DNA from: Methylotenera sp.
GTDB taxonomy: Bacteria > Pseudomonadota > Gammaproteobacteria > Burkholderiales > Methylophilaceae
Assembly (NCBI GenBank): GCA_021732405.1
Contig: JAKFVB010000063.1
Coordinates: 1-34,769 of the forward strand
DNA length: 34,769 bases
Direction of reading: 5' to 3'
The notes under the pieces were generated by a model. The model saw only the letters and a program-made list of their open reading frames with translations, did not search any database and was not told the DNA's origin. The translations under genes and the position numbers were made by a program. Shown here piece by piece: positions 950-27,317 of the stretch (position 1 is the stretch's first letter; each line of letters begins with the position of its first letter).

Positions 950-2398
950 ATGACCAACAAACAAGAAGTAAAAGATACCTCTAAAGAAAGCTTGGGCGAA
1001 AGCTTAAAGCAAGTAATCGCTTTGCTTGATAAGCATAAGCTGGTGGAGAATCTTGTACATAAGCAAGATATGCCTAAGCATGATTTGGTTGAATTGCTGG
1101 TACATAAGCAAAACTTAAATGAATTACAGAAAAAGTTAGATGTTTTACATCCAGCCGATGTTGCTTATATTTTAGAAGCGTTGCCATTAGAAGAACGTCT
1201 AAAAGTCTGGGAGCTTGTAAAAGCCGAGCGTGACGGCGAAATTTTACTGGAAGTGTCGGATTCCGTTCGGCAGAGCCTTATTGCAGACATGGATTCTGAT
1301 GAGCTGCTTGCTGCCGCAGAACAATTAGATACAGATGAGTTAGCAGACTTAGCGCCTGATTTGCCAAAAGACGTGTTGCAAGATTTGATGGACAGTCTGG
1401 ATTCGCAAAATCGTGAACGCTTGCAATCTACACTTTCTTATCCCGATGATGCCGTCGGCGCATTAATGGATTTTGATATTGTATCAATTAGAGAAGACAT
1501 CACTTTAGAAGTCGCTTTACGCTATCTGCGCCGTTTAAGTAATTTGCCAGATCATACTGATAAAATATTTGTGGTAGATAGACACGATATTTTGCTGGGC
1601 GTGTTGCCATTAAAAACCATGGTGGTGAATGATTTAGATGCCAATGTTGCCGATGTAATGATTGCCGATGCTGTTGTGTTTCATCCAGAAGACATTGCCG
1701 ATGAAGCTGCCAGCGCGTTTGAGCGTTATGACTTAGTGACCGCACCAGTGGTAGACCAAAATAATAAGCTGGTTGGCCGCATCACGGTAGATGCGGTAAT
1801 GGACTATATTCGTGATGAATCAAACGCCGATATGCTATCAATGGCGGGTTTGCGTGAGGAGGAAGATTTCTTTGCGTCAGTTTGGAAATCGGTACAAAAC
1901 CGCTGGGCATGGTTGGCTATTAACTTAATCACTGCCATCATCGCCTCTCGCGTGATTGGTTTGTTTGAAAACTCAATAGAGAGAATAGTCGCACTGGCTG
2001 CACTGATGCCGATTGTGGCAGGTATTGGTGGAAACTCTGGTAATCAAACCACGACCATGATTGTGCGTGGTTTAGCGTTGGGCCAAATCGCTTCGCATAA
2101 TATGCAGTCGCTGATTAAAAAAGAATTAGGCGTCGCTTTACTGAATGGTTTGGTGTGGGGTAGTGTGCTTGGATTGATTGCCTACATATTGTATGGAAAC
2201 TATCATTTAGGTTTGGTGATGATGTCAGCCATGACACTTAACTTGTTATTGGCCGCAATTATGGGTGTGACGATTCCACTAGTCATGAATCGCTTTGGGC
2301 GAGATCCCGCAGTAGGCTCCAGTGTGCTGATTACAGCGATGACCGATAGCGGTGGCTTTTTTATATTCTTAGGCTTGGCAACAATTTTCTTGTTGTAA
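950..2398 (+). CDS. mgtE: Magnesium transporter MgtE
   Basis: This is an inner-membrane Mg2+ channel/transporter with cytosolic Mg2+-sensing domains. The order is an acidic superhelical N domain (about residues 40-140, ending SYPDDAVGALMDFD), two CBS domains (about 145-270, including ITVDAVMDYI), then five membrane segments from about residue 300. The pore signature GIGGNSGNQTTTMIVRGLA is at about 358-376. At 482 residues it is slightly long because of a charged N-terminal extension. I chose ATG 950 over GTG 935 because TAAGG at 939-943 is correctly spaced for it. No Mg2+ riboswitch is visible in the short upstream gap. The channel gene follows after 16 bases, so the two are probably co-transcribed. 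Confidence 0.95.
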   Translation: MTNKQEVKDTSKESLGESLKQVIALLDKHKLVENLVHKQDMPKHDLVELLVHKQNLNELQKKLDVLHPADVAYILEALPLEERLKVWELVKAERDGEILLEVSDSVRQSLIADMDSDELLAAAEQLDTDELADLAPDLPKDVLQDLMDSLDSQNRERLQSTLSYPDDAVGALMDFDIVSIREDITLEVALRYLRRLSNLPDHTDKIFVVDRHDILLGVLPLKTMVVNDLDANVADVMIADAVVFHPEDIADEAASAFERYDLVTAPVVDQNNKLVGRITVDAVMDYIRDESNADMLSMAGLREEEDFFASVWKSVQNRWAWLAINLITAIIASRVIGLFENSIERIVALAALMPIVAGIGGNSGNQTTTMIVRGLALGQIASHNMQSLIKKELGVALLNGLVWGSVLGLIAYILYGNYHLGLVMMSAMTLNLLLAAIMGVTIPLVMNRFGRDPAVGSSVLITAMTDSGGFFIFLGLATIFLL

Positions 2399-2414
2399 CT
2401 AAATAACTGTCAAT

Positions 2415-3716
2415 ATGAACATGAACAACGAAATTTTTCTGGTTTGGCAAGAAACGATACAAGATATTTCTACACCAGCGGCACTATGGCAACTGGGCAT
2501 TATTGTTATCGCTGCAAGTGTTGCCTGGTTAATTAATGGTGCCCTGCGCGGTTATGTGATGCGCAGCGCGCCAGAAAATTGGCGCTTGGGTATTGGTAGT
2601 ATCAATCGCGTTTTATTTCCGCTATCGACTTTAATCATCATATTAATTGGCAAAGCAATCCTCACCCATTGGCAACATACCAGCATGTTGCATTTGGCCA
2701 GCAGATTGCTGATTGCTATGGCGGTCATTCGCCTAATTGTCTATGGCATTCGCTACATTATTTCACCAGGCGGCTTGCTTAAAACGCTAGAAAATACAAT
2801 ATCTGCGTTGATTTGGCTGATATTAGCATTGCATTTAAGCGGCTTATTGCCAGAAATTATTCAAACCTTAAAAGATGTTGAATTTAATATAGGCAAAACA
2901 AACGTTAATTTATTGGTTATTTTGCAAGCACTGCTCACTATCTTTGCAACTATATTTGTCGCACTTTGGATTAGTCGAGTGATGGAAAATAAGCTGATGC
3001 ATGCAACACATATTAATATGAATATGCGTGTTGTGATGAGCAAGGTGCTCAGAATTGCATTGATGTTTATCGCGATTATGATTGGCTTATCAGCAGCTGG
3101 GCTTGATTTAACTTTGCTCTCTGTGTTTGGTGGTGCCTTAGGTGTAGGGCTGGGTTTTGGTTTGCAACGCATCGCCAGTAATTACGTCAGCGGTTTTATT
3201 TTGTTATTAGATAAATCGATGCAAATTGGTGATATTGTAACGGTGGAAGATAAACATTATGGCGTTATTACCGATTTACGTACGCGGTATTTAGTCTTAA
3301 AAAAACTTGATGGCACACAAGTGATTGTGCCAAACGAATTGCTGATTATTAATTCAGTGATTAATCATTCATTTACCGATCGTAACAGCAGGGTACTTTT
3401 GGATGTGCAAGTGGCCTATGAAAGTGATTTAGAGTTAGTGTTGAATCTCATGAAAAAAGTAGCACAAGAAAACGCCAGAGTTTTAGTAACGCCCGAGCCA
3501 GTGGCAACCATTAAGGCTTTTGCTGAGAGTGGAGTCGACATGAATCTATCAATTTGGATTGCAGATCCAGAAAATGGGCAATTAGCATTAAAATCAGAAA
3601 TTTATTTAGCTTTGTGGAAAGCATTTAAGCAACATGGCATTTCCATCCCATTTCCTCAGCGTGAGCTTCGTATGCTGAACGCAATTGCGCCTGAAAATAC
3701 GGTTGATAAAAATTAG
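2415..3716 (+). CDS. MscS-family mechanosensitive ion channel
   Basis: This inner-membrane channel of 433 residues probably acts in osmotic-shock protection. Several hydrophobic segments (about 24-40, 65-82, 95-112, 130-145, 165-185, 210-230) precede the MscS pore helix and beta domain. The Gly/Ala-rich pore region FGGALGVGLGFGLQRIASNY is at about 238-257, followed by SGFILLLDKSMQIGDIVTVE and the downstream beta domain (GVITDLRTRYLVLKKLDGT). The extra N-terminal helices make it larger than E. coli MscS (286 residues). ATG 2415 and ATG 2421 are both possible and neither has a clear ribosome site. It is followed by a strong terminator. Confidence 0.9.
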   Translation: MNMNNEIFLVWQETIQDISTPAALWQLGIIVIAASVAWLINGALRGYVMRSAPENWRLGIGSINRVLFPLSTLIIILIGKAILTHWQHTSMLHLASRLLIAMAVIRLIVYGIRYIISPGGLLKTLENTISALIWLILALHLSGLLPEIIQTLKDVEFNIGKTNVNLLVILQALLTIFATIFVALWISRVMENKLMHATHINMNMRVVMSKVLRIALMFIAIMIGLSAAGLDLTLLSVFGGALGVGLGFGLQRIASNYVSGFILLLDKSMQIGDIVTVEDKHYGVITDLRTRYLVLKKLDGTQVIVPNELLIINSVINHSFTDRNSRVLLDVQVAYESDLELVLNLMKKVAQENARVLVTPEPVATIKAFAESGVDMNLSIWIADPENGQLALKSEIYLALWKAFKQHGISIPFPQRELRMLNAIAPENTVDKN

Positions 3717-3744
3717 CTTCAAAAAACAAGTTAAGTCGGATAAT

Positions 3745-3771
3745 AAAAAAGCCCGCAATTGCGGGCTTTTT
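3745..3771. terminator. Bidirectional intrinsic terminator
   Basis: GCCCGC-AATT-GCGGGC (3751-3766) is a perfect palindrome flanked by six A on the left and five T on the right. It can end the mscS-family transcript on the plus strand and the rpmB-rpmG transcript on the minus strand. Confidence 0.92.
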
Positions 3772-3800
3772 ACTTAAGTAACTAACATTAATGAATTAAA

Positions 3801-3956
3801 TTACTTAAGTTTTGTTTCTTTATAAATTACATGTTTACGTACCACAGGATCAAATTTTTTGATTTCCATTTTTTCTGGCATGGTACGTTTATTTTTAGTG
3901 GTGGTATAGAAATGACCTGTACCAGCACTTGATTCTAATTTAATTTTTTCGCGCAT
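3801..3956 (-). CDS. rpmG: 50S ribosomal protein L33
   Basis: This is a small large-subunit ribosomal protein of 51 residues. The minus strand reads [20 protein letters not shown], then [20 protein letters not shown] and [11 protein letters not shown], which matches proteobacterial L33 along its whole length. It lacks the paired cysteine motifs, so it is the zinc-free form. It follows rpmB by 37 bases, the usual order, and ends 30 bases before the bidirectional terminator. Confidence 0.97.
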
Positions 3957-12701: not shown

Positions 12702-12768
12702 CGTGCATTTGCGTTTTTAGATTTATTCGTGCATTTGCACTTACTTAGAATTTACCGTGCATTTGCAC
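12702..12768. repeat. Three copies of CGTGCATTTGC around the nasA stop codon
   Basis: CGTGCATTTGC occurs at 12702-12712, 12728-12738 and 12756-12766. The last two extend to the near-palindrome GTGCATTTGCAC. The third copy encodes the last residues of NasA (VQMHGKF). The first and third also share the flanking AATTTAC, so part of the 3' end of nasA seems to have been duplicated. Confidence 0.8.
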
Positions 12769-15468
12769 TAGTTTTTTCAATTCAGGTACGCACGATCCAC
12801 ACTCTGTGCCACATTTTAATTTGTTTTGCAAAGTAAGCAAATCGGCACCCATTTCAATATTGTCGATAATCTCATTTTGCGATACATCTAAGCAGTTGCA
12901 TACAATCTTACCGCGACCTCTTTGACCTGTTGGCGGCGCAACAACAGGTGCAAGCGCCCAGCGGCGTAGTTCATCGCTAAAACTGCCGCTAGACATCACG
13001 TCTTTTAACCAATCGGCTGCCAGTGTTTCGCCCATTAAGCGTACACCAGTTACCTGGTCATTTTCAACCAAAATGCGTTTGCTAATGCCGCGTTTTGCGT
13101 CATTGTAATTGAGCAAAGGCATATCGTCGGTCATGCTCAGAATAGTATCGATTTGTTCAACTAGACCGCTTTCTGGTGCTTCCGTATGTGCAGCGCGCAA
13201 TATCAGCATGCCAATACCATGATCTGATTCGCGGCCAAATAAACCGCAGCTCGCATAAGTAAAGTGCGGTAACAAAGTACGGATTTTTTGCAGCATATTC
13301 AAATCGTTCACAGCACGCATCACCGTCATGCACCATGGTAATTCTAATTTCTCAATTTTAATCGCCGTATGTTTTAGTTCTGGTTGCTTAGAAGTTTTAT
13401 CAAAATTAGGCGGCATTAAGGCATTAACACCCAAGCCATGCATAAACTGGCTGCCCCAATGCATGGCGATAAACGTTTGCGATGGTTGCACATCAGTCGA
13501 AGCTTGCACAGGTAACACAAGGCTGCCACGCTTATTTTGCACTTTAACAATATCGCCATTTTTAATGCTGCGGCGCATCATATCGTCCGCATTCATTTGA
13601 ATGGCAGGTTCTTCAACATGGTTAAACAACTGCGCAGTTGTGCCTGTGCGGCTCATGCCGTGCCATTGGTCGCGTAAACGGCCCGTGAGTAAATGCAGCG
13701 GGTGGCGGGCGTCAGTTTTATCCGCGGTACCTTTGTAAACTGCATTGGAAAATTGCGCTTTTCCATCTGGTTTTTCAAAAACGCCATCTGCGTAAAGCCT
13801 TGCCAAACCTTGTGTTTCACCTGTTTTAAATGGCCATTGTTGCGGGCCATTTTCATTTAACAAGGCATAGCTTAAACCAGTAATATCTAAATCGCGGCCA
13901 CGTGTGGATTCGCGGTGTTCGTTAAAAATATCTTCTGCGCTATTAAAAGCAAAAAGGTGTGATTGCTTAGTATCGTTTTTGGCTAAACGCTTTTCTAAAC
14001 GCTGTGCAAAATCGACCATAATCGCCCAATCGTGTTTGGCTTCAGCAGGTGGTGGCACAGCAGGATTTACACGCGTAATACGGCGCTCAGAATTGGTCAC
14101 CGTGCCTTCTTTTTCGCCCCAAGTGCTGGCTGGCAATAGCACATCGGCATAGGCACAAGTGTCAGTATTGCTGTAAGCGTCCTGCACCACAACCAATTCT
14201 GCGGTGTTTAAAGCGTTAAGTACGTTGTTTAAATCAGGCATGGAATGCGCAGGATTGGTGCAGGCAATCCAAATCGCTTTGATTTCACCTGCTTTTACTG
14301 CATCAAACATTTCAATTGCCGTTTTGCCTGCGGTTTCGGGAACAGAATCGATGCCCCATAATTTGGCAACTTCTGCGCGGTGTTCAGCATTATTCAAATC
14401 GCGATGACCAGATAGCAAATTGGCCATACCGCCCACTTCGCGGCCACCCATAGCATTGGGCTGACCAGTCAGTGAGAACGGACCAGCGCCTTTTTTGCCG
14501 ATTTGACCTGTAGCCAGATGCAGATTAATCAGCGCCGCATTTTTATCGGTACCATGAATGCTTTGGTTTAAGCCCATGCAATACATGCTTAATGTTGGCC
14601 CAGCACCAAACCACTTGGCGGCTTGAATAATATCCGATTGCTTGATGCCGCAAATATCGGCCACCATTTTTGGTGTGTATTCGCGCAAGGTTTCTTTTAG
14701 TTCATCAAAGCCATTGGTATGTGCGTTAATAAAGGCCATATCCAGCAGGCCTTCCCACAGCATCACATGCAATAAGCCATTAAATAAAGCGACATCGGTA
14801 CCAGGTAAGATGGCCAAATGCAAATCGGCAGAACGCGCGGTATCGGTTTTGCGCGGGTCAACCACTACAATTTTTAAGTCAGGATTCTTGGCCTTGGCGT
14901 CTTCAATGCGCCTGAAAATGATCGGGTGCGCAAATGCGGTATTGCTGCCTGCAATAAACAGGCAATTGGTATGGTCAATGTCTTCATAGCACGCGGGTGG
15001 CGAGTCTGCGCCTAATGTGGTTTTGTAGCCTGCAACGGCAGAGCTCATGCATAAACGCGAGTTGGTATCTACGTTGTTGGTGCCAATTAAGCCTTTGGCG
15101 AGCTTGTTAAAGACATAATAATCTTCAGTTAACAGTTGGCCAGAGATATAAAACGCGACCGAATCAGGACCATGTTTTTCGATAATTTGAGCAAATTTTT
15201 CGGTTAAGTAATCCAGCGATTCATCCCAAGAAACACGTTTTCGCGGCGCTTCACGGCTCAAGCGCATTTCTGGGTACAACAGGCGATTATCCAGTTTTGC
15301 CGTTAAATGCAGCGTTGCGCCCTTGGTGCACAGGCGTCCAAAATTGGCTGGGTGCTCAGTATCACCTTTCACATCAATGATTTTGTCATTTTGTGAGTGA
15401 ATGATTACTCCGCAGCCAACGCCGCAGTAGCAACAAGTACTTTTAGTTTGTTTAATTAAAGCGTCCAA
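12745..15468 (-). CDS. nasA: Assimilatory nitrate reductase catalytic subunit
   Basis: This cytoplasmic molybdoenzyme reduces nitrate to nitrite. Numbering from the TTG at 15468 gives 907 residues. The N-terminal [4Fe-4S] motif uses Cys12, 15, 19 and 47 (CCYCGVGC, GRLCTKG). TNSRLCMS places the likely Mo-ligand Cys at 140. The molybdopterin-binding middle contains TGQPNAMGGREVGG, and the C-terminal dinucleotide-binding domain starts near TGRLRDQWHGMSRTG. The last 55 residues form a BFD-like [2Fe-2S] domain (CNC near 857-859, CGTECGSC near 886-893). This layout matches Klebsiella/Pseudomonas-type NasA. The start is uncertain: no ATG is available between the nirD stop and the Fe-S motif, and an earlier TTG at 15540 lies inside nirD. 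No NasB/NasC-type reductase gene is nearby. Confidence 0.93.
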   Translation of the reverse strand: MDALIKQTKSTCCYCGVGCGVIIHSQNDKIIDVKGDTEHPANFGRLCTKGATLHLTAKLDNRLLYPEMRLSREAPRKRVSWDESLDYLTEKFAQIIEKHGPDSVAFYISGQLLTEDYYVFNKLAKGLIGTNNVDTNSRLCMSSAVAGYKTTLGADSPPACYEDIDHTNCLFIAGSNTAFAHPIIFRRIEDAKAKNPDLKIVVVDPRKTDTARSADLHLAILPGTDVALFNGLLHVMLWEGLLDMAFINAHTNGFDELKETLREYTPKMVADICGIKQSDIIQAAKWFGAGPTLSMYCMGLNQSIHGTDKNAALINLHLATGQIGKKGAGPFSLTGQPNAMGGREVGGMANLLSGHRDLNNAEHRAEVAKLWGIDSVPETAGKTAIEMFDAVKAGEIKAIWIACTNPAHSMPDLNNVLNALNTAELVVVQDAYSNTDTCAYADVLLPASTWGEKEGTVTNSERRITRVNPAVPPPAEAKHDWAIMVDFAQRLEKRLAKNDTKQSHLFAFNSAEDIFNEHRESTRGRDLDITGLSYALLNENGPQQWPFKTGETQGLARLYADGVFEKPDGKAQFSNAVYKGTADKTDARHPLHLLTGRLRDQWHGMSRTGTTAQLFNHVEEPAIQMNADDMMRRSIKNGDIVKVQNKRGSLVLPVQASTDVQPSQTFIAMHWGSQFMHGLGVNALMPPNFDKTSKQPELKHTAIKIEKLELPWCMTVMRAVNDLNMLQKIRTLLPHFTYASCGLFGRESDHGIGMLILRAAHTEAPESGLVEQIDTILSMTDDMPLLNYNDAKRGISKRILVENDQVTGVRLMGETLAADWLKDVMSSGSFSDELRRWALAPVVAPPTGQRGRGKIVCNCLDVSQNEIIDNIEMGADLLTLQNKLKCGTECGSCVPELKKLVQMHGKF

Positions 15469-15482
15469 TTTGCTGGTCTTTA

Positions 15483-15815
15483 TTACTTGTCTTTTAATTC
15501 CAAATACACAATGCCATCTTCTACTTTGGTATTGTAGCAAGCGGTTTCACCCACATCTGGCTCTTCAGCTTTACCATCGACCAAGCTGATTTTCCACGAA
15601 TGCAGCGGACAAGCGACTTTATCGCCATATACAATGCCTTGCGATAAAGGCCCAGCTTTATGCGGACAGCTATTGTTAATGGCAAAAATGCGGTCATCTT
15701 CAGTGCGGAATACGCCAATATCAAACACTTTTTGTTCGCTATCTTTGGTGCGCACAACGCGCGCGCCTAATTTAGGAATTTCATCAAACGGCGCTACTTT
15801 TACCCAATTGCTCAT
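15483..15815 (-). CDS. nirD: NADH nitrite reductase small subunit (Rieske-like)
   Basis: This partner of NirB in the six-electron reduction of nitrite to ammonium has 110 residues with a Rieske fold. CPH (Cys50, His52) and CPLH (Cys69, His72) keep all four cluster ligands, so this copy should bind a [2Fe-2S] cluster, unlike E. coli NirD, which lacks them. GGGG about eight bases before ATG 15815 supports the start. It lies between the kinase/phosphatase gene and nasA, and is separated from nirB by three genes. Confidence 0.94.
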   Translation of the reverse strand: MSNWVKVAPFDEIPKLGARVVRTKDSEQKVFDIGVFRTEDDRIFAINNSCPHKAGPLSQGIVYGDKVACPLHSWKISLVDGKAEEPDVGETACYNTKVEDGIVYLELKDK

Positions 15816-15885: not shown

Positions 15886-17580
15886 TTAGCTGACTAATAA
15901 TAAATAAATCAATAATATATTGATTATAAAAGAAAAAATAGCAATCCATTGCCATTTAACTAATCTGGCGCGCGCGATTAACGGCGTGCGTGCAGGCGCT
16001 AACAACGGCTTGAGCTCGCCATGCTCTAATGCTAACAACATTTCTTCAGCTGTTTCAAAGCGCAATTTAGGCTCACGCGCAATGGCTTTAAGAATGATAT
16101 TTTCTAACCAATAGGGAATATCTGGCCTGTAGCGCGTTAGCGGCGTTGGCGCGCCAAATTTAGGATGTTGAAACGGTTCAACTTCGCCATACGGATATTT
16201 GCGCGTGAGCAAGTGATACAGCGTAACGCCTGCGGCATAAATATCGCTCTGCGCATTTGCCACTACACCATCAAACAATTCGGGTGCCATAAAACTGGGT
16301 GTGCCAGGATTTTGCGTTGCGCCAATCATTTCGGCACCTGTACTTAACGCTACGCCAAGGTCTAAAATACGTAAACGTTGGTCGCTGGCTTGATGAATAT
16401 TCGCAGGCTTGATATCGCGATGAATGATACTGAGGCGATGCAACGCGCCGATGCCGCGCAAGATATCCATGCCGATTTTGGCGGTGCCGGCTACCGTAAA
16501 ATAATGGCCATTGTCTAAACGCTGTTGCAAAGTAGCGCCCTCATGCCAGCTCATCACAAAGTAGAGTTTGCTGCGATTTTCGAGCGATAAGGTGAGCACT
16601 TGCGGTACGTATTGCGACACGACGCGCTTGCCTAGCCATTCTTCGTTGAGCAGGCCGTTACAGCTTTCAATGTCATTGGCTAGTGCAGGTTGCAATGTTT
16701 TTAGTACAAATAGCTGTTTAGTGCTGTTTTGACGTACTTTATACAGAAGACTCGCGCGTGATTCATGCAAAATATCTTCAACGGTAAAATCATCAATCGA
16801 TTCGTTGATGGATAATTTATGAGGCAACGCTAAATGTTTTGCACCTGCGATGCGCTCACTTAATGTATCTGCGCCCAGTTGCGTGATTTTAATGACAATA
16901 GCAGTTGAATTATCTGCACTTTGCTGCTGTATAGCGGTTTTAGTGAGGTGCTCGGCAATCATCTGCACGTTATTGAATTTTTTTAAGCCTTCATGAATGG
17001 CTTTTTCGCCCAGTGTTTCCCATACGCCATCTGTCATTAATGCAAAAATATCGCCTACTTTTAGCGCGCCATCCGCTAAATCGACTGCTAAATGCGCATC
17101 TAAACCAACCGCACGTTTTAAAACATGGCGCATATCTGGCCTATCCCAAACGTGGTCGGTGGTGAGTTGGGTTAACACATTATCGCGCAGCAAATAAATA
17201 CGTGTATCGCCCACATGCGCTAGGTAATAACGTTGTCCGCGCAATATCAGCAATGAAAGCGTTGTCGCCATGCCAGCTAAATCGCGATTAGCGTTGGCTT
17301 GCGAAATCAGCCAGCGATTGGCGGCGGTTATCACTTTATCTAGCGCGGTAGATGGCTCCCAAGTATCAGGTGTGGCGTAATAATCGGTTGAGATATTGCG
17401 AACTGTCATCTCTGATGCTTCACCTCCGCCCGCGTTGCCACTCACGCCATCGGCCACTGCAATCAACGAACCCTTGATGCTAAGTTGCTCATTGATGGGC
17501 GTTACCACACCCACGTAATCTTCATTACGTTGGCGTGGGCCAGTCAGGCTGGATTGACCTATTTCAAATTTAAGTGACAT
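15886..17580 (-). CDS. Fused PP2C phosphatase and Ser/Thr protein kinase with C-terminal membrane anchor
   Basis: The 564-residue protein joins opposing activities. The PP2C half (1-235) keeps the metal motifs RNED (18-21), DGVSG (44-48), GDTR (124-127), TDGVWE (183-188) and DNST (223-226). The Hanks-type kinase half (about 262-525) has the likely ATP lysine in FVLK (294), HRDIKPAN (387-394), DLG (407-409) in place of DFG, and MAPE (431-434). The glycine-rich loop is degenerate (ILHESRASLLYKV). One membrane helix (545-563) ends the chain, placing both domains in the cytosol. Similar genes sit in the nitrate clusters of other proteobacteria, for example beside nirB in Pseudomonas aeruginosa as I recall. 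A control role on nitrate uptake or reduction is inferred; targets are unknown. Confidence 0.92.
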   Translation of the reverse strand: MSLKFEIGQSSLTGPRQRNEDYVGVVTPINEQLSIKGSLIAVADGVSGNAGGGEASEMTVRNISTDYYATPDTWEPSTALDKVITAANRWLISQANANRDLAGMATTLSLLILRGQRYYLAHVGDTRIYLLRDNVLTQLTTDHVWDRPDMRHVLKRAVGLDAHLAVDLADGALKVGDIFALMTDGVWETLGEKAIHEGLKKFNNVQMIAEHLTKTAIQQQSADNSTAIVIKITQLGADTLSERIAGAKHLALPHKLSINESIDDFTVEDILHESRASLLYKVRQNSTKQLFVLKTLQPALANDIESCNGLLNEEWLGKRVVSQYVPQVLTLSLENRSKLYFVMSWHEGATLQQRLDNGHYFTVAGTAKIGMDILRGIGALHRLSIIHRDIKPANIHQASDQRLRILDLGVALSTGAEMIGATQNPGTPSFMAPELFDGVVANAQSDIYAAGVTLYHLLTRKYPYGEVEPFQHPKFGAPTPLTRYRPDIPYWLENIILKAIAREPKLRFETAEEMLLALEHGELKPLLAPARTPLIARARLVKWQWIAIFSFIINILLIYLLLVS

Positions 17581-17596: not shown

Positions 17597-17758
17597 TTAT
17601 GGTTTGGATTTAAACCAAAACCAGCCATTCAAACTCAAGAAAATAAATAATCCAATATCTAAAATCGGCCAGTATTTTGGATTATTTAAAAATACGCCGA
17701 ATACAATCAAACTCGCGCAAGCAAAAGAAATTAAACACATCAGGATTTTGAAAGGCAT
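17597..17758 (-). CDS. Small two-helix membrane protein between narK and the kinase
   Basis: The product has 53 residues. From ATG 17758, preceded by AGGG at nine bases, it reads MPFKILMCLISFACASLIVF and is almost entirely two hydrophobic helices (about 3-22 and 29-47), ending in basic FWFKSKP. There is no known motif. It is packed 16 bases before the kinase/phosphatase gene and 36 bases after narK, all on one strand, so it is likely translated as part of the operon. It could be an accessory subunit of the permease or of the membrane-tailed kinase; this is positional inference only. Confidence 0.6.
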   Translation of the reverse strand: MPFKILMCLISFACASLIVFGVFLNNPKYWPILDIGLFIFLSLNGWFWFKSKP

Positions 17759-17794: not shown

Positions 17795-19006
17795 TTATAC
17801 TTTGGCGGCTGTATTAACAGCGCTGCCCCAAGTGGTTCTCCAGCGGGTTTTTACACCGCTTAAGCCAATCATCGCCAATAAAGCTAGGCCTGCAAAAATC
17901 AAAATGCCAATTTGGTAATTACCCGTTGCCTGTTTAATATAGCCCAAACTCGCCGCCAAATAGAAGCCGCCAACGCCGCCTGCCATGCCGACCAAACCGG
18001 TCATCACGCCAATTTCTTTGCGGAAACGTTGCGGCACCAATTGGAAAACCGCGCCATTGCCCATGCCTAACGCAGCCATCACTGGAATAATAATCGCCAG
18101 TGCTAATACATAAGTAGGCTGGCCAAAGCTCATAATTACTAATAGCACGGCCGCAATCGCGTACATGGTGAGCAGGGTGCGGATACCGCCTATGCGGTCG
18201 GCAATCATGCCGCCAATTGGGCGCACCAATGAGCCTGCAAATACGCAAGCCGCAGTACAGTAGCCAGCAACCACAGGACCAAGACTGTATAAATCGTTAA
18301 AATAAATGGTCAGTGATGATGCCAAGCCAACAAAACCGCCAAAAGTCACACTGTAAAAAAACATAAACCACCAAGCGTCTTTATCTTTTAATATCGCCAT
18401 GTATTGGCTTAGCGATTTTGCAGCGGGTGTTTCTGGGCTATCTTTGGCAAAAATTAAATAGATAGCGAAGGCAATACCGAGTGGAATTAACGCTAAACCA
18501 AACACGTTATTCCAGCCGTAGGCCACCGCCAAGCTTGGCGCAAATAAAGCGGCAAATACAGTGCCAGAGTTACCTGCACCTGCAATACCTAAAGCAGTAC
18601 CTTGGTGCTCTGGCGGATACCAGCGTGATGCAAGCGGCAATGCAACCGCAAATGCCGCGCCCGCAAAGCCTAAGCCAATGCCGAGCATAAGTGTATGTTG
18701 AAAGGTTTGCAAACCGTGTAACCAAGCGGTTAACAAGCTCGCAATCACAATAATTTGACCAATCGTACCTGCATTTTTTGGTTTGATTTGGTCAACCAGC
18801 ACGCCCATCACAATACGCAGTAGCGCACCAGCTAATACTGGGGTTGCAACCATTAATCCCTTTTGTGACGGGCTTAGGTTTAAATCAGTCGCCATCTGTA
18901 CTGCAAGTGGGCCCAATAATACCCACACCATAAAGCTTAAATCGAAATATAAAAACGAGGATAATAATGTTGGTGTGTGACCAGCTTTCCAAAAACTGCT
19001 TTTCAT
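17795..19006 (-). CDS. narK: Nitrate/nitrite transporter of the MFS NarK/NasA type
   Basis: This inner-membrane permease of 403 residues has about 12 hydrophobic segments. The two nitrate-signature regions typical of the NNP family are readable: GFAGAAFAVALPLASRWYPP with GTALGIAGAGNSGT (about 110-150) and GMGNGAVFQLVPQRFRKEIG with GLVGMAGGVGGF (about 310-350). RIVMGVLVDQIKPKNAG is the MFS loop 2-3 motif. It probably imports nitrate, possibly exchanging nitrite. GGGAGT before ATG 19006 is a good ribosome site. It follows nirB and is the second nitrate importer encoded in this cluster. Confidence 0.93.
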   Translation of the reverse strand: MKSSFWKAGHTPTLLSSFLYFDLSFMVWVLLGPLAVQMATDLNLSPSQKGLMVATPVLAGALLRIVMGVLVDQIKPKNAGTIGQIIVIASLLTAWLHGLQTFQHTLMLGIGLGFAGAAFAVALPLASRWYPPEHQGTALGIAGAGNSGTVFAALFAPSLAVAYGWNNVFGLALIPLGIAFAIYLIFAKDSPETPAAKSLSQYMAILKDKDAWWFMFFYSVTFGGFVGLASSLTIYFNDLYSLGPVVAGYCTAACVFAGSLVRPIGGMIADRIGGIRTLLTMYAIAAVLLVIMSFGQPTYVLALAIIIPVMAALGMGNGAVFQLVPQRFRKEIGVMTGLVGMAGGVGGFYLAASLGYIKQATGNYQIGILIFAGLALLAMIGLSGVKTRWRTTWGSAVNTAAKV

Positions 19007-19127: not shown

Positions 19128-21584
19128 TTAAACGGTAATCGTTTCAAACTCTTTATGTTGCTCGCGTTTTTGCACGCGTTCAGACCAAGGCTCAACCGCG
19201 CCTTGCAAGGCAAACAATAGGCGTTCGTACGCAGCTTTACGGCCTTCATGATCTTCTAGCACACGTTGTTTCACATACTCCAAACCAACGCGTTCAATCC
19301 AATGTACAGTGCGGTCTAGGTAACGCGCTTCTTCGCGGTAGATTTGAATAAATGCGCCTGAGTATTCCAGCACTTCATCAGATGTTTTGACTTTGCATAA
19401 AAATTGCGCCACTTCGGTTTTAATACCGCCGTTGCCACCAACGTAAATCTCCCAGCCAGAATCCACGCCGATAATACCCACGTCTTTAATACCAGATTCC
19501 GCACAATTTCTTGGGCAGCCCGATACGGCAAACTTAACCTTGTGCGGTGCCCACATATGGTCAAACGCTTTTTCGATATCAATACCCATTTGTGTGGAAT
19601 TTTGTGTACCAAAACGGCAGAATTCAGAACCCACACAAGTTTTAACGGTACGAATACCTTTGGCATAAGCGTAGCCAGAAGGCATATCTAAGTCTTTCCA
19701 CATGCCAACTAAGTCTTCTTTTTTTACGCCTAACAAATCAATACGCTGGCCGCCAGTTACTTTCACCATTGGCACCGCATATTTATCCGCTACATCGGCA
19801 ATCTTGCGTAATTGGTCAGGCGTAGTTACGCCGCCATACATACGCGGGATGACTGAATATGTGCCGTCTTTTTGAATGTTGGCATGCACGCGTTCGTTAA
19901 TAAAGCGCGATTGTGGGTCATCCACTGCCTCATGCGGCCAACTAGAAAGCAAGTAGTAGTTCAGTGCAGGGCGGCAAGTTGCGCAACCGTTAGGAGTGCG
20001 CCAAGACATGCCTTTCATGGCATCTGGAATATTCAAGTATTTGTGTGTGCGAATTTCTGCTCGCACTTCTTCATGATTTTTATCGGAACAACCACATATC
20101 GCTTTGCTGGTGGACGGTGGTGCATAACCGCCGCCTAAAGTAGACGCTAAAATTTGTTCAACCAAGCCCACGCAACTGCCGCAGCTAGAGCCTGCTTTAG
20201 TTTGTTTTTTAACATCATCAATCGTAAACAAACCTTGGTCTTGAATCGCTTTAACAATCGTACCTTTGCAAACGCCGTTACAGCCGCATACTTCCATTTC
20301 GTTAGTCATTGCGGCGGCTTTGTCTTGGCCTTGATGACCAGTATTGCCTAAGCTATCTTGACCAAACATCAAAGAATCGCGGATTTCATGAATCGGTTTT
20401 GAGTCGCGTAGCATTTGGAAATACCATGCACCGTCTGCGGTGTCGCCATAAAGCACGCTGCCAATGATTTTGTCATTTTTGATAACGAGCTTTTTGTAAA
20501 CCCCGCCAACTGCGTCGTGTAAAACAATTTCTTCGCGTTCTTCATCCGCCGCTTCAATTGGGCTTCTAAAGTCGCCAGCACTAAATAAATCAATGCCCGT
20601 TACTTTTAATTTGGTTGAAGTAACCGAGCCTTTATAAGACCCAATACCAAAGTTGGCTAAATGCGTGGCGCAGACTTTTGCCATTTCAAATAAGGGTGCA
20701 ACTAAGCCATATGAAATGCCGCGATGCGCAACGCATTCGCCCACCGCATACACGCGCGGGTCGTAGGTTTGCATGGTGTCATTCACCACAATGCCTTTGT
20801 TACAGTAGATGCCAGCCGATTCTGCTAGCGCAAAGTTTGGGCGAATCCCCACAGCCATTACCACTAAATCTGCAGGTATTTGCGTGCCATCTGTAAAGTG
20901 AATTGCGCTAACGCGACCTGATTTTCCATCAGTACTGTCACCTGTCAGTTCTTTGGTATTTTGTTTTAATTGAAACTTAAGGCCTTTAGCCTCTAAGCTT
21001 TTTTGCAGCATTTTGCCTGCAGTTTTATCTAATTGTCTTTCTAACAGCCATTCATTACGATGAATAACGGTGACATCCATTCCTTGAATTTTCAAGCCAT
21101 TTGCAGCTTCAAGTCCAAGCAAGCCGCCACCAATAATAACGGCATGTTTGTGGGTTTTTGCCGCATCAATCATGTCATTGGTATCTTTAATGTCGCGGTA
21201 ACCAATCACGCCATTTAAATCGGCACCAGCAATTGGTAGCATAAATGGTTTTGAACCCGTTGATAGCAAGAGGCGATCATACTCAGCGCTTGAGCCATCT
21301 TCTGCATAAACAACACGGTTTTTACGATCGATTTTATTAATTCGTGCACTAGTATAGAGCGTGATATGGTTTTCTGCGTACCATTCGCGCGTGTTTAAAA
21401 TAATGTCATTAATGGTTTGCTCATTAGCTAAAACAGGCGAAAGCATAATGCGATTATAGTTGGTGTAAGGCTCATCGCCGAACACGGTAATATCATAAAT
21501 GTCAGGCGCGATTTTTAGCAGTTCTTCTACTACACGCATGCCAGCCATGCCATTACCAACCACCACTAATTTCATTTTTTGCAT
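19128..21584 (-). CDS. nirB: NAD(P)H nitrite reductase large subunit
   Basis: This cytoplasmic siroheme enzyme reduces nitrite to ammonium. The 818 residues show, in order, an FAD/NAD(P) reductase (FAD motif VVVGNGMAGMRVVEEL at 7-22; NAD motif VIIGGGLLGLEAA at 149-161; YAVGEC at 279-284), a BFD-like [2Fe-2S] domain (Cys433, 435, 468, 471), a second short Cys-rich domain (CGC 497-499, CATC 534-537), a ferredoxin-like half, and the siroheme/[4Fe-4S] domain with Cys650, 656, 690 and 694 (TCVGSEFCRFG, SGCPRNCAESG). It is complete and of normal length. Its own sigma-54 promoter and NtrC-like sites lie just upstream, so nirB probably starts a second transcript within the cluster. Confidence 0.97.
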   Translation of the reverse strand: MQKMKLVVVGNGMAGMRVVEELLKIAPDIYDITVFGDEPYTNYNRIMLSPVLANEQTINDIILNTREWYAENHITLYTSARINKIDRKNRVVYAEDGSSAEYDRLLLSTGSKPFMLPIAGADLNGVIGYRDIKDTNDMIDAAKTHKHAVIIGGGLLGLEAANGLKIQGMDVTVIHRNEWLLERQLDKTAGKMLQKSLEAKGLKFQLKQNTKELTGDSTDGKSGRVSAIHFTDGTQIPADLVVMAVGIRPNFALAESAGIYCNKGIVVNDTMQTYDPRVYAVGECVAHRGISYGLVAPLFEMAKVCATHLANFGIGSYKGSVTSTKLKVTGIDLFSAGDFRSPIEAADEEREEIVLHDAVGGVYKKLVIKNDKIIGSVLYGDTADGAWYFQMLRDSKPIHEIRDSLMFGQDSLGNTGHQGQDKAAAMTNEMEVCGCNGVCKGTIVKAIQDQGLFTIDDVKKQTKAGSSCGSCVGLVEQILASTLGGGYAPPSTSKAICGCSDKNHEEVRAEIRTHKYLNIPDAMKGMSWRTPNGCATCRPALNYYLLSSWPHEAVDDPQSRFINERVHANIQKDGTYSVIPRMYGGVTTPDQLRKIADVADKYAVPMVKVTGGQRIDLLGVKKEDLVGMWKDLDMPSGYAYAKGIRTVKTCVGSEFCRFGTQNSTQMGIDIEKAFDHMWAPHKVKFAVSGCPRNCAESGIKDVGIIGVDSGWEIYVGGNGGIKTEVAQFLCKVKTSDEVLEYSGAFIQIYREEARYLDRTVHWIERVGLEYVKQRVLEDHEGRKAAYERLLFALQGAVEPWSERVQKREQHKEFETITV

Positions 21585-23242: not shown

Positions 23243-24091
23243 TTAAGCGACTTTTTTAGCATGACGTTCATATAAGAATTTCAATACTTCAGAGCGCAGG
23301 TGGTTGTATTGCACATTTTCGGCAAGCTCTAAGCGTTTGCGTGGATAAGGCAAATCGACCTCTAAAATCTCTCCGATGCCAGCACTGGGGCCATTGGTCA
23401 TCATCACGATTTTGTCTGATAGCAACACGGCTTCATCCACATCGTGCGTTACCATCACAGCGGTTGCGCCCGATTTTTGCATAATGCGCATCAACTCGTC
23501 TTGCAAGCCTGCACGGGTTAATGCATCCAGTGCACCAAACGGCTCATCCAGTAACAACACTTTAGGTTCCATTGCCAATGCTCTGGCAATGCCTACGCGT
23601 TGTTTCATACCGCCAGAAATTTCATTAGGACGTTTTTCAACCGCGTGGCTTAAGCCGACCAACTCTAGTGCTGCATAAGCGCGTGCTTCTTGCTGCACTT
23701 TGGTTTCACTGCCAAATACGCGCTCTACAGCTAAATACACGTTTTCGTAGCAACTTAACCATGGCAATAAAGAGTGATTTTGAAACACCACTGCACGTTC
23801 AGGGCCAGGCGCTGCGATTTCGCGCCCTGCACAAAATAAGTTGCCGGTAGTGGGTTGCAATAAGCCTGCAATCAAATTAAGTACTGTTGATTTGCCGCAG
23901 CCTGAGTGACCAATAATCGATACAAACTCACCTTGTGTGATACTTAAGTTAATGTTTTTAAGCGCTTCAAAAGTGCCTTTTTTGGTGACAAACTGCATAC
24001 CAACATCTTCAATATGGACATAACGTTCGGTTACTTTTGCTGTGTTATTGCTCAAAGCTGGCGTTGTAGCTTCATTTAAAATGGGGTTCAT
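23243..24091 (-). CDS. nrtD: Nitrate ABC transporter ATP-binding protein
   Basis: This ATPase of the nitrate importer has 282 residues. Walker A is GHSGCGKST (61-69), the signature is ISGGMKQRVGIARAL, Walker B is VLLLDEPFGALDALTR, and the switch histidine lies in VMVTHDVDEAVLLSDK. These are typical of the nitrate/sulfonate/taurine class. It lacks the NrtA-like C-terminal extension of cyanobacterial NrtC, so it is the plain NrtD-type subunit and would work as a homodimer. It is 28 bases after nrtB. Confidence 0.94.
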   Translation of the reverse strand: MNPILNEATTPALSNNTAKVTERYVHIEDVGMQFVTKKGTFEALKNINLSITQGEFVSIIGHSGCGKSTVLNLIAGLLQPTTGNLFCAGREIAAPGPERAVVFQNHSLLPWLSCYENVYLAVERVFGSETKVQQEARAYAALELVGLSHAVEKRPNEISGGMKQRVGIARALAMEPKVLLLDEPFGALDALTRAGLQDELMRIMQKSGATAVMVTHDVDEAVLLSDKIVMMTNGPSAGIGEILEVDLPYPRKRLELAENVQYNHLRSEVLKFLYERHAKKVA

Positions 24092-24119: not shown

Positions 24120-25079
24120 TTATTCGTAGGCAAAACGTTTAGCCAGCATGGATAAGCCAAGTTCTAGCAATAAACCGATAATACCAACCACAAAAATAGC
24201 GATAATAATGTGCTCGTAATTGGAAGCGTTGTACTCATCCCATAGCCAAAAACCAATACCTGCGCCGCCGTTTAACATTTCTGCCGCTACAATCACCAAC
24301 CACGCAATACCAATCGATAAGCGCACGCCTGTCATCATGTAAGGCAACACATAAGGGAATGAAATTTTAGTGATGATTTTCCATTCGCTTAAATTCAGCA
24401 CTTTGGCCACGTTCATATAATCTTGTGGCACTTTGCTCACACCAACTGCGGTGTTAATCACCATTGGCCAAATGCTGGATATAAAAATAACCCAGATTGC
24501 TGCAGGGCCAGCCGCACCCATCACCAGCAAGCCCAAAGGTAACCAAGCCAAAGGCGACACTGGGCGCAAAATGCTAATCACTGGCGCTGTCATGCTAGAC
24601 ATAAACTCATAGCGGCCAATCATAAATCCCAGCGGAATACCGACCAGCGCCGCCAAGCCAAAGCCAAATGCAACCCGTTGTAGTGATGAAAGAATATTCC
24701 AGCCAATACCTTGGTCATCTAAACTATTTTGATGAAAAGGGTGTGAAAACAACTCAACGGCAGAATGCCATGTGCTGATTGGTCCTGGCAAAATCGGTTG
24801 CTGGTGCGAAAGCAAAGTCCAAATGCCTAAGAACATTAAAATGCCAAAGACAGGCGGTATAACGGCTTTAAAAAAATCAGTGATTTTTATCTGCATGGCG
24901 CTGGGTTGCGACTTTGCAGACTTCTGTGTTTTTTCAGCAGCTTTTTCAACGATCATTTGCATATGTGTATTGTCTTCGTTAGCCGCAAGCACGGTTTCTT
25001 TGACTATGCTTTCGGAACTGGTTTTTGCATCTTCTAATATCAGTTTTAAGTGCTCTTTATTGATACTGATTGCGCTCAT
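24120..25079 (-). CDS. nrtB: Nitrate ABC transporter permease
   Basis: This inner-membrane subunit of the nitrate importer has 319 residues. After a charged N-terminal extension of about 65 residues (longer than usual) come about six membrane segments. The cytoplasmic coupling loop is readable as NLSEWKIITKISFPYVLPYM (EAA-type loop, about 228-247). SPLAWLPLGLLVMGAAGPAA is typical of NrtB/SsuC/TauC permeases. AAGGAG before ATG 25079 fixes the start. A stem-loop separates it from nrtA. Confidence 0.93.
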   Translation of the reverse strand: MSAISINKEHLKLILEDAKTSSESIVKETVLAANEDNTHMQMIVEKAAEKTQKSAKSQPSAMQIKITDFFKAVIPPVFGILMFLGIWTLLSHQQPILPGPISTWHSAVELFSHPFHQNSLDDQGIGWNILSSLQRVAFGFGLAALVGIPLGFMIGRYEFMSSMTAPVISILRPVSPLAWLPLGLLVMGAAGPAAIWVIFISSIWPMVINTAVGVSKVPQDYMNVAKVLNLSEWKIITKISFPYVLPYMMTGVRLSIGIAWLVIVAAEMLNGGAGIGFWLWDEYNASNYEHIIIAIFVVGIIGLLLELGLSMLAKRFAYE

Positions 25080-25151: not shown

Positions 25152-26462
25152 CTAAGCTTTTACTTTAAAGCTGGCGGCGTAAGCGGCGGGGTTAGAGCCA
25201 TCCCACACCACGCCGTCCATTAATTTGCTGGAACGCATTTGGCTCTTAGGAATGCTGGTACCGGTTAAGCTTGCCGCTTCTGTATACAGCTTGATATCGT
25301 TGACTTTGTTGGCTATTGCCAAGTAGTCAGGATCCGCTTTTAATAGACCCCAGCGTTTATGCTGCGTTAAGAACCACATACCGTCAGATAGGTATGGGAA
25401 ATTCACGTAACCATCTTGATAGAATTTCATGTAATTCGGATCTTTCCATTTTTTGCCATTGCCATTGTCGTAGTCACCTACAAAACGGCCAGCAATCACA
25501 TCTTCTGATGTATTCACATACGCTTTAGCTGAGATAAGTTTGGCTACTTTTGCGCGGTTTTCAATCGCATCGATGTACTTACAAGCGTCTAAAATAGCGG
25601 CAATCATGGCGCGTGCAGTATTTGGATTTTTTTCAACGAACTCAGCAGTTGTACCTAATACTTTTTCTGGGTGATCCTGCCAAATATCTTGTGTAGTCGT
25701 CACCGTAAAGCCTACTTTATCGGCAATTGCACGTGCACCCCATGGTTCGCCAACACAATAGCCATCCATATTGCCGATACGCATATTGGCAACCATTTGC
25801 GGCGGCGGCACAACAATCGATTTAATATCGCTTACAGGGTTAATGCCGTTAGCAGCTAACCAGTAGTTAAGCCACATCGCATGTGTGCCAGTGGGGAAAG
25901 TGTTTGCAAAAGTAAAATCGCGATTTTCATTGGCCATCACGCGTTTAAGTGATTTGCCATCTTTAACGCCTTTGTCTTTTAATGCGGAAGAAAGTGTAAT
26001 CGCCTGACCGTTATGGTCTAGGTTCATCAACACTTTCATATCTTTTTGCTGACCGCCAATGCCCATTTGTACGCCGTAAATTAAGCCATATAAAACATGC
26101 GATGCATGTAACTCGCCATTCATGGTTTTATCGCGCACTGCTGCCCAAGAGGCTTGTTTAGCTGGAATAATTTTAATACCGTATTTTTTGTCAAAGCCCA
26201 TTTCGGCTGCCACCACAATCGGTGCGCAATCGGTCAATGGAATAAAACCGATTTTCACTTCTGTGATTTCAGGTGCGTCAGACCCTGCTGCATAAGCCAT
26301 ATTTTTAATCCCCGCTGGCATGATATTCAGTGCCGCTGCTGCGCCAAACGCACCTGCGATACTTTGTTTAAAAAACTGACGGCGACTGGCGTCTACTGAG
26401 CTACTCGTATCAATCGTGCTGCTGACTGAGTCGATGGTGTTGGTTTTATCTTGGTCTTGCAT
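25152..26462 (-). CDS. nrtA: Nitrate ABC transporter substrate-binding protein (Tat-exported)
   Basis: This periplasmic nitrate-binding protein has 436 residues. A twin-arginine signal SRRQFFK (26-32) plus a hydrophobic stretch ending near YAAGSDAPE indicates export by Tat. The mature part has VKIGFIPLTDCAPIVVAAEM, TFPTGTHAMWLNYWLAANGI and NMDGYCVGEPWG, hallmarks of NrtA/CmpA-type proteins. The signal peptide argues against this being NasS, a cytoplasmic relative that regulates NasT. AAAGGAA lies just before ATG 26462. It is the first gene after the antitermination leader. Confidence 0.94.
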   Translation of the reverse strand: MQDQDKTNTIDSVSSTIDTSSSVDASRRQFFKQSIAGAFGAAAALNIMPAGIKNMAYAAGSDAPEITEVKIGFIPLTDCAPIVVAAEMGFDKKYGIKIIPAKQASWAAVRDKTMNGELHASHVLYGLIYGVQMGIGGQQKDMKVLMNLDHNGQAITLSSALKDKGVKDGKSLKRVMANENRDFTFANTFPTGTHAMWLNYWLAANGINPVSDIKSIVVPPPQMVANMRIGNMDGYCVGEPWGARAIADKVGFTVTTTQDIWQDHPEKVLGTTAEFVEKNPNTARAMIAAILDACKYIDAIENRAKVAKLISAKAYVNTSEDVIAGRFVGDYDNGNGKKWKDPNYMKFYQDGYVNFPYLSDGMWFLTQHKRWGLLKADPDYLAIANKVNDIKLYTEAASLTGTSIPKSQMRSSKLMDGVVWDGSNPAAYAASFKVKA

Positions 26463-26547: not shown

Positions 26548-26595
26548 AAAAAAAGCGCCTTAACAACGAGGGGTTATCCTCATTACTAAGACGCC
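26548..26595 (-). terminator. Regulated intrinsic terminator in the nrtA leader
   Basis: On the minus-strand RNA, GGCGTCTTAGTAATGAGG pairs with CCTCGTTGTTAAGGCGCT over 18 positions, several of them G-U, around loop ATAACC. A run of seven T follows at 26554-26548. It lies upstream of nrtA with no open reading frame before it, so it should stop transcription unless antitermination occurs. Confidence 0.85.
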
Positions 26596-26619
26596 TTTGT
26601 CTTTACTTACAATTTATGT

Positions 26620-26726: not shown

Positions 26727-27305
26727 TTAAACAATCAGCATTTTTGCCGCTTCAATTAACTGATGCGATAAATCGGCCAATTTCATATTCTTTTTCATCG
26801 CCATATTGCGCAATAAGGTATACGCTTCCTCTTCGTCAATCTGGCGTTGACGCATCATTAAGCCTTTTGCACGCTCAATTACTTTGCGCTCATCTAACTT
26901 AAGATTTGCCATATTGAGTTCAGCACGTAAATGGTTGAACTCTTCAAATCTTGCTACCGCAGCATCTATCACAGGTATTAGCCTTTCACTAGGAATATCA
27001 CCCACTACATAAGCGCTGACACCTGCTTGTGTAGCGATTTTAATTTTCTCTTTATCGCCATCGTGCGTAAACATCACAACGGGTCGCGAATCATTCATGC
27101 TCATCACACAGATATTCTCTAATGTGTCGCGACTTGGTGATTCAGTATCAATAATCACAATATCTGGTTTTATCTCACAGCATTTGGCTTCTAAATTCAC
27201 CGTATTTTCCAGATGTGCAACCACTTCAAACCCGTTATCAATCAGTGATTGCTTAAGCGGCTTGATGCGTTTTAAATCATTATCAATAATCATCACTTTC
27301 AGCAC
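26727..27305 (-). CDS. nasT: NasT-type ANTAR response regulator (RNA-binding antiterminator)
   Basis: This cytoplasmic antiterminator of nitrate assimilation has 192 residues from GTG 27305. The receiver-like domain (1-120) begins LKVMIIDND and has DIVIIDTESP at the usual phosphorylation-site position. A linking coiled helix leads to an ANTAR domain (about 135-190) with KVIERAKGLMMRQRQIDEEE and AYTLLRNMAMKKNMKLADL. Its likely target, two hairpins and a terminator, lies immediately downstream, before nrtA. The start is uncertain: TTG 27311, GTG 27305 and ATG 27293 are in frame; GTG gives the best match to the NasT N-terminus (MLKVMIID). No nasS lies next to it in this window. Confidence 0.93.
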   Translation of the reverse strand: MLKVMIIDNDLKRIKPLKQSLIDNGFEVVAHLENTVNLEAKCCEIKPDIVIIDTESPSRDTLENICVMSMNDSRPVVMFTHDGDKEKIKIATQAGVSAYVVGDIPSERLIPVIDAAVARFEEFNHLRAELNMANLKLDERKVIERAKGLMMRQRQIDEEEAYTLLRNMAMKKNMKLADLSHQLIEAAKMLIV

Positions 27306-27317
27306 AGTCAAACTGTT

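Follow-up and report, generated by a model that had tools for sequence, protein, structure and literature searches.

The KIN Gene and Its Product

The stretch of DNA analyzed here ("the window") is the 34,769-nucleotide (nt) contig JAKFVB010000063.1, contig 27 of the 2.27-Mb genome of Methylotenera sp. (assembly GCA_021732405.1), and the gene in question, at positions 15886-17580 of the minus strand, encodes a phosphatase of the PP2C family fused to a Ser/Thr kinase; "KIN" is used below as a working name for this gene and its relatives. It stands in a same-strand series whose order in transcription is nasT, nrtABC, a porin gene, nirB, narK, KIN, nirD and nasC, and the identification of the NarK, NirB, NirD and NasC-like neighbors by Pfam/NCBIfam bears out a preliminary description, made from the letters of this DNA, which had placed the gene among nitrate permease, nitrite reductase and nitrate reductase genes. 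Of the best 80 among the 565 confirmed relatives of KIN, the closest that carries a name is from Methylotenera versatilis and is 93% identical over KIN. The features on which the argument depends are the following (evidence in brackets):

15886..17580, minus strand: KIN, PP2C phosphatase and Ser/Thr kinase fusion with a C-terminal hydrophobic helix, 564 amino acids (open reading frame (ORF), Pfam, AlphaFold2, alignment)
16876..17580, minus strand: PP2C half, residues ~1-235, metal-binding aspartates conserved (Pfam, alignment, structure match)
16015..16818, minus strand: kinase half, residues ~255-522, K294/E313/D389/N394/D407 conserved, DLG, no glycine-rich loop (Pfam, alignment, structure match)
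15892..15966, minus strand: C-terminal hydrophobic helix, residues 539-563, probable tail anchor (AlphaFold2, hydropathy)
17795..19006, minus strand: narK, major facilitator superfamily (MFS) transporter of the NarK family, 403 amino acids, the upstream partner gene (Pfam/NCBIfam; NCBIfam score 286 bits, below the cut-off of 311.7)

KIN is a single intact open frame with an ATG start. Its N-terminal half belongs to the PP2C/PPM phosphatases by its fold, by matches to PF00481/PF13672 over residues 12 to 193 (48.7 bits for PF13672, cut-off 24) and by the presence of the aspartates D21, D44, D125, D184 and D223, so that the metal motifs are intact, as the preliminary description had it. The other half is a Hanks-type kinase (PF00069 at 277-466, 106.9 bits against a cut-off of 31.7) possessing K294, E313, D389, N394 and D407, with the motifs HRDIKPAN (387-394), DLG (407-409) and GTPSFMAPE (426-434); the position of the glycine-rich loop is occupied by LHESRASLLYK, without a single glycine, and the canonical GxGxxG of Hanks kinases is thus absent. 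The earlier reading of this half (HRD and APE present, DLG for DFG, no glycine-rich loop) was therefore correct in its motifs, and so was that of a single C-terminal helix: the AlphaFold2 model (mean predicted local distance difference test score of 84) has a predicted helix at 539-563, the Kyte-Doolittle peak (2.69 over 19 residues) runs from residue 546 to the C-terminus (546-564), and a single hydrophobic helix at the very end is what characterizes tail-anchored proteins.

When the Foldseek matches were re-aligned with VIA-align, the phosphatase half aligned to PppA, tPphA and PstP with Z of 31.2, 31.0 and 30.4, respectively, and the kinase half to PknB with Z of 30.3. KIN nevertheless falls outside the Stk1/PknB PASTA kinases (NF033483; 134.7 bits, cut-off 450) and the Stp1/IreP phosphatases (NF033484; 144.1 bits, cut-off 230); no outer sensor domain was found in it, and the Pfam scan at E 0.001 detected no PASTA domain. 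The fusion is not a chance joining, for the first search, which covered 60 other genomes, turned up full-length relatives at 55-99% identity in 21 (one of these being interrupted by stops). The genome of the window also holds, at G000:C14:19550-20934 (minus strand), a PP2C match beside a kinase match interrupted by stops, which are 30% and 25% identical to KIN.

Position Relative to Transporter Genes

The surroundings of KIN were surveyed in two partly overlapping collections. The even sample consists of 369 genomes drawn evenly across the class, which gave 147 KIN matches in 124 genomes, of which 136 copies were fetched with at most 4 kb on each side; the named set, which is biased, comprises the best 80 of the 565 confirmed relatives, with 82 KIN copies. 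Neighbors were called direct at a gap of -700 to 750 nt between stop-to-stop frames. Room for a neighbor existed upstream of 129 even-sample copies and downstream of 129, these being two different subsets of the 136.

Of the 129 even-sample copies with room upstream, 107 directly follow a gene of the NarK family or of the formate/nitrite transporter (FNT) family of channels (PF01226), and a same-strand NarK/FNT gene directly after KIN, taken as a control, occurs in none of the 129 with room downstream. Across all 136 copies, the upstream partner is NarK in 82 (74 of a long type and eight of the short type of the window) and FNT in 25, while seven copies lose their upstream side at a contig end and 22 have something else. 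The named set is similar, with 63 of its 82 copies directly behind a same-strand NarK-family MFS gene, 10 behind FNT and nine behind neither; in two of its loci (L087, Marinobacter nitratireducens, and L106), two KIN copies stand close by, one behind FNT and the other behind NarK. FNT and NarK have unrelated folds. The hydrophobic C-terminus is shared irrespective of the partner, as the Kyte-Doolittle peak lies no more than 40 residues from the end in 9/9 short-NarK, 73/74 long-NarK and 25/25 FNT copies, with a median of 1-2 residues remaining after it.

Among the nine exceptions of the named set, narK is upstream on the other strand in two loci (L066, L069), two loci start at a contig end (L068, L086), and no NarK/FNT gene was found at L062, L071, L075 and L081. 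Among the 22 exceptions in the 129 even-sample copies, narK is further upstream or overlapping in three (L149, L168, L231), FNT is divergent from KIN in two (L218, L230), narK is nearby in another orientation in two (L261, L269), and in L251 it lies beyond a reverse-transcriptase gene. That gene, possibly belonging to a group II intron, separates narK from KIN both there (2071-3822) and in L067 (8071-9822), which are on the same contig. Three further copies (L270, L271, L274) form a KIN subclade in ethanolamine/amine operons, which encode EutC, a copper amine oxidase or an aldehyde dehydrogenase together with an APC amino-acid permease; the permease gene is directly upstream only in L274, and APC permeases are possibly a third transporter type for KIN.

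Kinase Lineages, Transporter Types and Co-Occurrence

Eighteen genomes had two fetched KIN copies. Twelve of them hold one NarK pair and one FNT pair, and none of the 18 has two copies behind the same transporter type, one copy being unassigned or truncated in the other six. The phylogeny follows the same division: in a FastTree phylogeny of 137 KIN proteins (the even sample and the window), two changes, the minimum, suffice for the three partner types on the labeled rows, and in an IQ-TREE phylogeny of 61 paired copies, every one of the 200 bootstrap trees unites the FNT-paired kinases (100/99), while the kinases paired with short NarK form a second group (100/100). In the 12 dual-pair genomes, each copy falls with the kinases that have its transporter type in other genomes and not with its genome mate.

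At the level of whole genomes, KIN was found in 124, NarK in 144, FNT in 61 and NirB in 180 of the 369 (NarK, TIGR00886 at E 1e-50; FNT, PF01226 at E 1e-30; NirB, TIGR02374 at E 1e-100). The preliminary description had mentioned similar genes in nitrate clusters of other proteobacteria, and this agrees with the presence of NirB in 120 and of NarK or FNT in 119 of the 124 KIN genomes. An absence of such co-occurrence, which that description had named as grounds for giving up its switch, is not what the counts show, and the idea stands on this point; two of the five genomes lacking NarK/FNT at these thresholds (G159, G213) do have NarK directly upstream of KIN. KIN occurs in 117 of the 145 nirB genomes with NarK/FNT vs. 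three of the 35 without, and in 117 of the 145 NarK/FNT genomes with NirB vs. two of the 29 without, these two conditional counts together indicating that KIN marks genomes having NirB and a secondary transporter at the same time. As KIN is so rare in nirB genomes without NarK/FNT, where we infer that NrtABC is used, the ABC transporter encoded in the window is unsupported as a partner of KIN.

Conservation of Catalytic Residues

Residues were counted in an alignment of the 137 KIN proteins, of which 108 are transporter-paired (nine short-NarK, the window included, 74 long-NarK and 25 FNT). K294, E313, D389, N394 and D407 are invariant in all of these (9/9, 74/74 and 25/25), and the five PP2C aspartates are retained as well, bar one D21E. 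Several catalytic or metal-binding residues of both halves have been lost in three copies (L273, L275, L276), for none of which a transporter neighbor was found; taken together with the invariance in the paired copies, this indicates that both halves are strongly constrained beside a transporter.

None of the 137 copies has more than one glycine in the glycine-loop stretch (residues 271-281), so the missing glycine-rich loop is, as judged from the alignment, a trait of the whole family. Long-NarK and FNT copies most often read H-x-S-x-R-S/T there, and seven of the nine short-NarK copies keep a single glycine at position 274. DLG is similarly a matter of subfamily, being present in 8/9 short-NarK copies, to which the window belongs, with DFG in 63/74 long-NarK and 23/25 FNT copies. 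Arg388 is replaced by Gln in 50/74 long-NarK and 24/25 FNT copies, and Lys391 by Arg in 24/25 FNT copies, the catalytic loop of which mostly reads HQDLRP instead of HRDLKP (e.g., L203, L151); the latter replacement is peculiar to this clade and affects a residue close to the phosphate being transferred.

Proposed Role and Alternative Explanations

On balance, KIN probably serves to regulate one particular protein, the secondary nitrate/nitrite transporter encoded before it, which here is NarK. The support consists of the gene structure, the catalytic residues, the hydrophobic C-terminus and the adjacency to transporters of two unrelated folds, to which are added the mostly single kinase copy per transporter type, the matching clades and the dependence on both NirB and a secondary transporter. 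KIN would be made together with the transporter and anchored to the inner membrane through the C-terminal helix, its phosphatase and kinase both facing the cytoplasm; there it might reversibly phosphorylate Ser/Thr residues exposed by the transporter on that side, or those of a gating partner bound to the transporter; nitrate/nitrite uptake could thereby be turned down or up fast, e.g., on the arrival of ammonium or the build-up of nitrite. The absence of an outer domain suggests that the signal would be cytoplasmic or would come via the transporter itself.

A broader picture, which we hold more tentatively and would place somewhat short of probable, is that KIN is a self-contained and portable module by which bacteria switch nitrogen-source transporters through phosphorylation. 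One lineage would have moved from NarK to FNT, and a small subclade to the APC permeases of ethanolamine operons; every copy would be specialized for its own transporter, with nitrate/nitrite uptake controlled post-translationally by a kinase and a phosphatase in one molecule.

Several points weigh against a dedicated transporter regulator. The genome-level counts, which ignore shared ancestry, link nirB to KIN as tightly as the transporter, and since reductase and transporter are tied by presence, only position separates them. In 11 of the 129 even-sample copies, no NarK/FNT gene was found in the fetched flanks, the neighbors there being partly identified (L159, L209, L235, L248, L253, L254, L255, L268, L273, L275 and L276). 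If unassigned and truncated rows are counted as groups, the 137-row FastTree phylogeny requires four changes for the FNT label and 24 for all labels (shuffled mean, 57.7), and the 61-row IQ-TREE phylogeny comes with the warning that its long branches meet at a long-NarK row (L258). The efficiency of the kinase is uncertain because the glycine-rich loop is absent and Arg stands for Lys391 in the FNT-paired copies. Moreover, no phosphosite separating paired from unpaired NarK proteins was found, 16 regions having been fetched for this (14 with a NarK-like frame), and the proposal includes a good many steps that we infer, namely catalytic activity, membrane orientation, co-expression, physical contact, the transporter as the substrate, the signal, and whether the effect on uptake is positive or negative.

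The NarK tails do carry conserved Ser/Thr, but both RWRTTWG of the short tail and PDGT/PDGS of the long one are also present in unpaired relatives. For FNT, position Thr11 of the N-terminal segment is Ser/Thr in 33/36 paired vs. 3/8 unpaired proteins of the near subfamily (Fisher p 0.002), a comparison in which 20 unpaired regions were fetched, 18 recognized and 10 more distant ones left out, the eight were chosen after their scores were known and the site from several candidates, and several of the eight "unpaired" genomes hold KIN elsewhere (e.g., G416, G424). The Thr residues of the NarK tails and FNT Thr11 are candidate phosphosites, the link of the latter to KIN being suggestive only.

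The preliminary description had proposed a switch acting on a transporter, a reductase or NasT, and it is the transporter that position favors. That the target would instead be the assimilatory reductase (NirB, NirD, NasC), with the transporter gene being only a frequent operon neighbor, seems unlikely, even if NirB is nearly universal in KIN genomes, nirB, nirD and nasC surround KIN in the window, and, of the 129 copies with room downstream, 12 are directly adjoined by a same-strand nirB/nasC gene, always on the downstream side. The reductase genes fall within the fetched flanks, some of which are cut by contig ends, in only 57/136 copies, and in 3/25 of the FNT-paired ones (3/18 where both sides have at least 3.5 kb, the other seven having a shorter flank). 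In addition, nirB is on the opposite strand at four loci that keep narK-KIN (L051, L052, L057, L059), KIN is nearly absent from nirB genomes devoid of NarK/FNT, and the kinase clades track the transporter type. As a constant partner, then, the reductase is weaker than the transporter by position and equal to it by presence.

It is about as improbable that KIN acts on a nitrogen regulator (PII/GlnK, NasT or glutamine synthetase), the transporter being affected indirectly. The cyanobacterial PP2C that dephosphorylates PII is PphA, and cyanobacterial tPphA is the best Foldseek match of the phosphatase half; after re-alignment, however, tPphA ties with general PP2C enzymes. PII itself was rejected as a substrate, as Ser49, the residue phosphorylated in cyanobacteria, is Ala49 in both PII proteins found in this genome (YRGAEY, with Tyr51), and a NasT-like gene was not detected in the fetched DNA of FNT-paired loci such as L093, L095, L097 and L107. 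The action of a cyanobacterial PP2C on PII is itself documented by a reference title in PMC1262709. The remaining alternative, to which we likewise give little credence, is that the kinase half is weak or dead and KIN serves as a phosphatase or scaffold on the transporter; the glycine-poor loop of all copies and the replacements at Arg388 and Lys391 would fit this, but a dead domain should drift, as it does in the three transporter-less copies with lost residues, and the five core kinase residues have not changed in any paired copy.

If KIN does regulate its neighboring transporter, a dedicated kinase-phosphatase control of nitrate/nitrite uptake would be widespread (a third of the sampled genomes of the class, 124/369), a further level of regulation on top of the transcriptional one already known from NasS-NasT and NtrC. 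How methylotrophs and marine bacteria retain nitrogen and release nitrite would be affected as well. Such regulation would also provide a named substrate candidate for an uncharacterized bacterial kinase family, with two unrelated transporter folds to compare, and genomes such as that of Marinobacter nitratireducens, which carry both versions, could serve as internal controls.

Relation to Known Systems

KIN belongs to enzyme families already known, in a setting that is partly known; what is new is that the rule of following a transporter gene holds for two unrelated folds, with kinase lineages to match. A Pseudomonas aeruginosa protein, gi|9947763, is relevant here and is likely PA1782. A PP2C-kinase fusion represented by gi|9947763 was reported for Pseudomonas in BMC Genomics in 2005, where one of P. 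putida is named too, and called uncharacterized (PMC1262709); like KIN, the class has an N-terminal PP2C joined to a Ser/Thr kinase, whereas a transporter or nitrate link, in the part of the paper at hand, is absent from its description. The genome paper of Pseudomonas sp. UW4 from 2013 gives the order nasST-nasA-ppkB-nasDEC-cobA and hints at transporter phosphorylation, citing plant and yeast work (PMC3596284). The kinase gene ppkB is there immediately behind the NarK-family nasA in a nitrate assimilation cluster, as KIN is behind narK on the same strand, a likeness that concerns gene order and description and not a sequence comparison with PA1782. PpkB is described as a kinase only, and the phosphatase half, the FNT pairing, the one copy per type and the wide distribution do not appear in the accessible portion of that source.

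Elsewhere, PA1781 nirB, PA1782 ppkB and PA1783 nasA are consecutive entries in a table (PMC6954232), the genes neighboring PA1782 are strongly down in ntrB and ntrC mutants, with PA1782 itself outside the rows shown (PMC7214821), PA1782 is listed among signal transduction genes (PMC4412052), and the nitrate genes of Methylophilus are described, in the part consulted, without a KIN-type kinase (PMC8399692). Neither a functional study of the fusion nor any mention of the FNT pairing was found in an open-access library, covered largely through listings and the openings of abstracts, that lacks most subscription papers. The expectation of the preliminary description that this would be a "little-described control layer" is thus a fair one, even if the ground is not untouched, given the reports of 2005 and 2013.

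The two folds of KIN are the same as those of PknB/Stk1 and PstP/Stp1, which are among its best structural matches; KIN differs in being one fused chain, in having neither PASTA nor another outer domain, in its sub-cut-off NCBIfam scores and in lacking the glycine-rich loop. As for the regulation of nitrate transporters, plant NRT1.1 is among the targets of a PP2C phosphatase, ABI2. Transporter activity is likewise set by a kinase in the pairs NRT1.1 and CIPK of Arabidopsis and Ynt1 and Npr1 of Hansenula, both cited in PMC3596284. These systems have different transporters, and their kinases and phosphatases are separate proteins, which makes them an analogy to KIN only.

Other Features of the Window and of Related Loci

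The remaining genes of the series and the features between them are as follows:

12745..15540, minus strand: assimilatory nitrate reductase (molybdopterin) of the nasC type (512 bits with the NasC model, below the cut-off of 1100)
15483..15815, minus strand: nirD, nitrite reductase small subunit (TIGR02378, over the cut-off)
17597..17758, minus strand: small ORF of 53 amino acids with two hydrophobic segments, between narK and KIN (ORF listing)
19128..21584, minus strand: nirB, assimilatory nitrite reductase large subunit (TIGR02374, 932 bits, over the cut-off)
23243-24091, minus strand: nrtC, nitrate ATP-binding cassette (ABC) transporter (Pfam/NCBIfam)
24120-25079, minus strand: nrtB, nitrate ABC transporter (Pfam/NCBIfam)
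25152-26462, minus strand: nrtA, nitrate ABC transporter (Pfam/NCBIfam)
26552..26597, minus strand: strong terminator-like hairpin with a 20-pair stem and a run of T, in the leader that separates nasT from nrtA (sequence)
26727..27311, minus strand: nasT-like ANTAR response regulator (PF03861 and PF00072)

The listed TTG start of nasC overlaps nirD and is probably too far upstream. ANTAR regulators act by antitermination at leader hairpins, which is what would be expected for NasT, and the hairpin before nrtA is possibly its target; Rfam had zero matches in the window. In the 214 nt that separate narK from KIN, the 53-amino-acid ORF has its stop 16 nt before the KIN start, and among the 18 of 22 close loci covered by the ORF listing, a near-identical genome (L002) is the only one besides the window to have it.

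Certain related loci have peculiarities of their own. A gene for an HDOD-domain protein directly follows KIN in two gammaproteobacterial loci (L071, 3632-4588; L073, 2843-3730), and in L255 a second, separate protein kinase gene (406-1812) is directly upstream of KIN. L044 has the narK-KIN arrangement, with a KIN 57% identical to that of the window, under a record title (Bordetella parapertussis metagenome-assembled genome) that looks unreliable.

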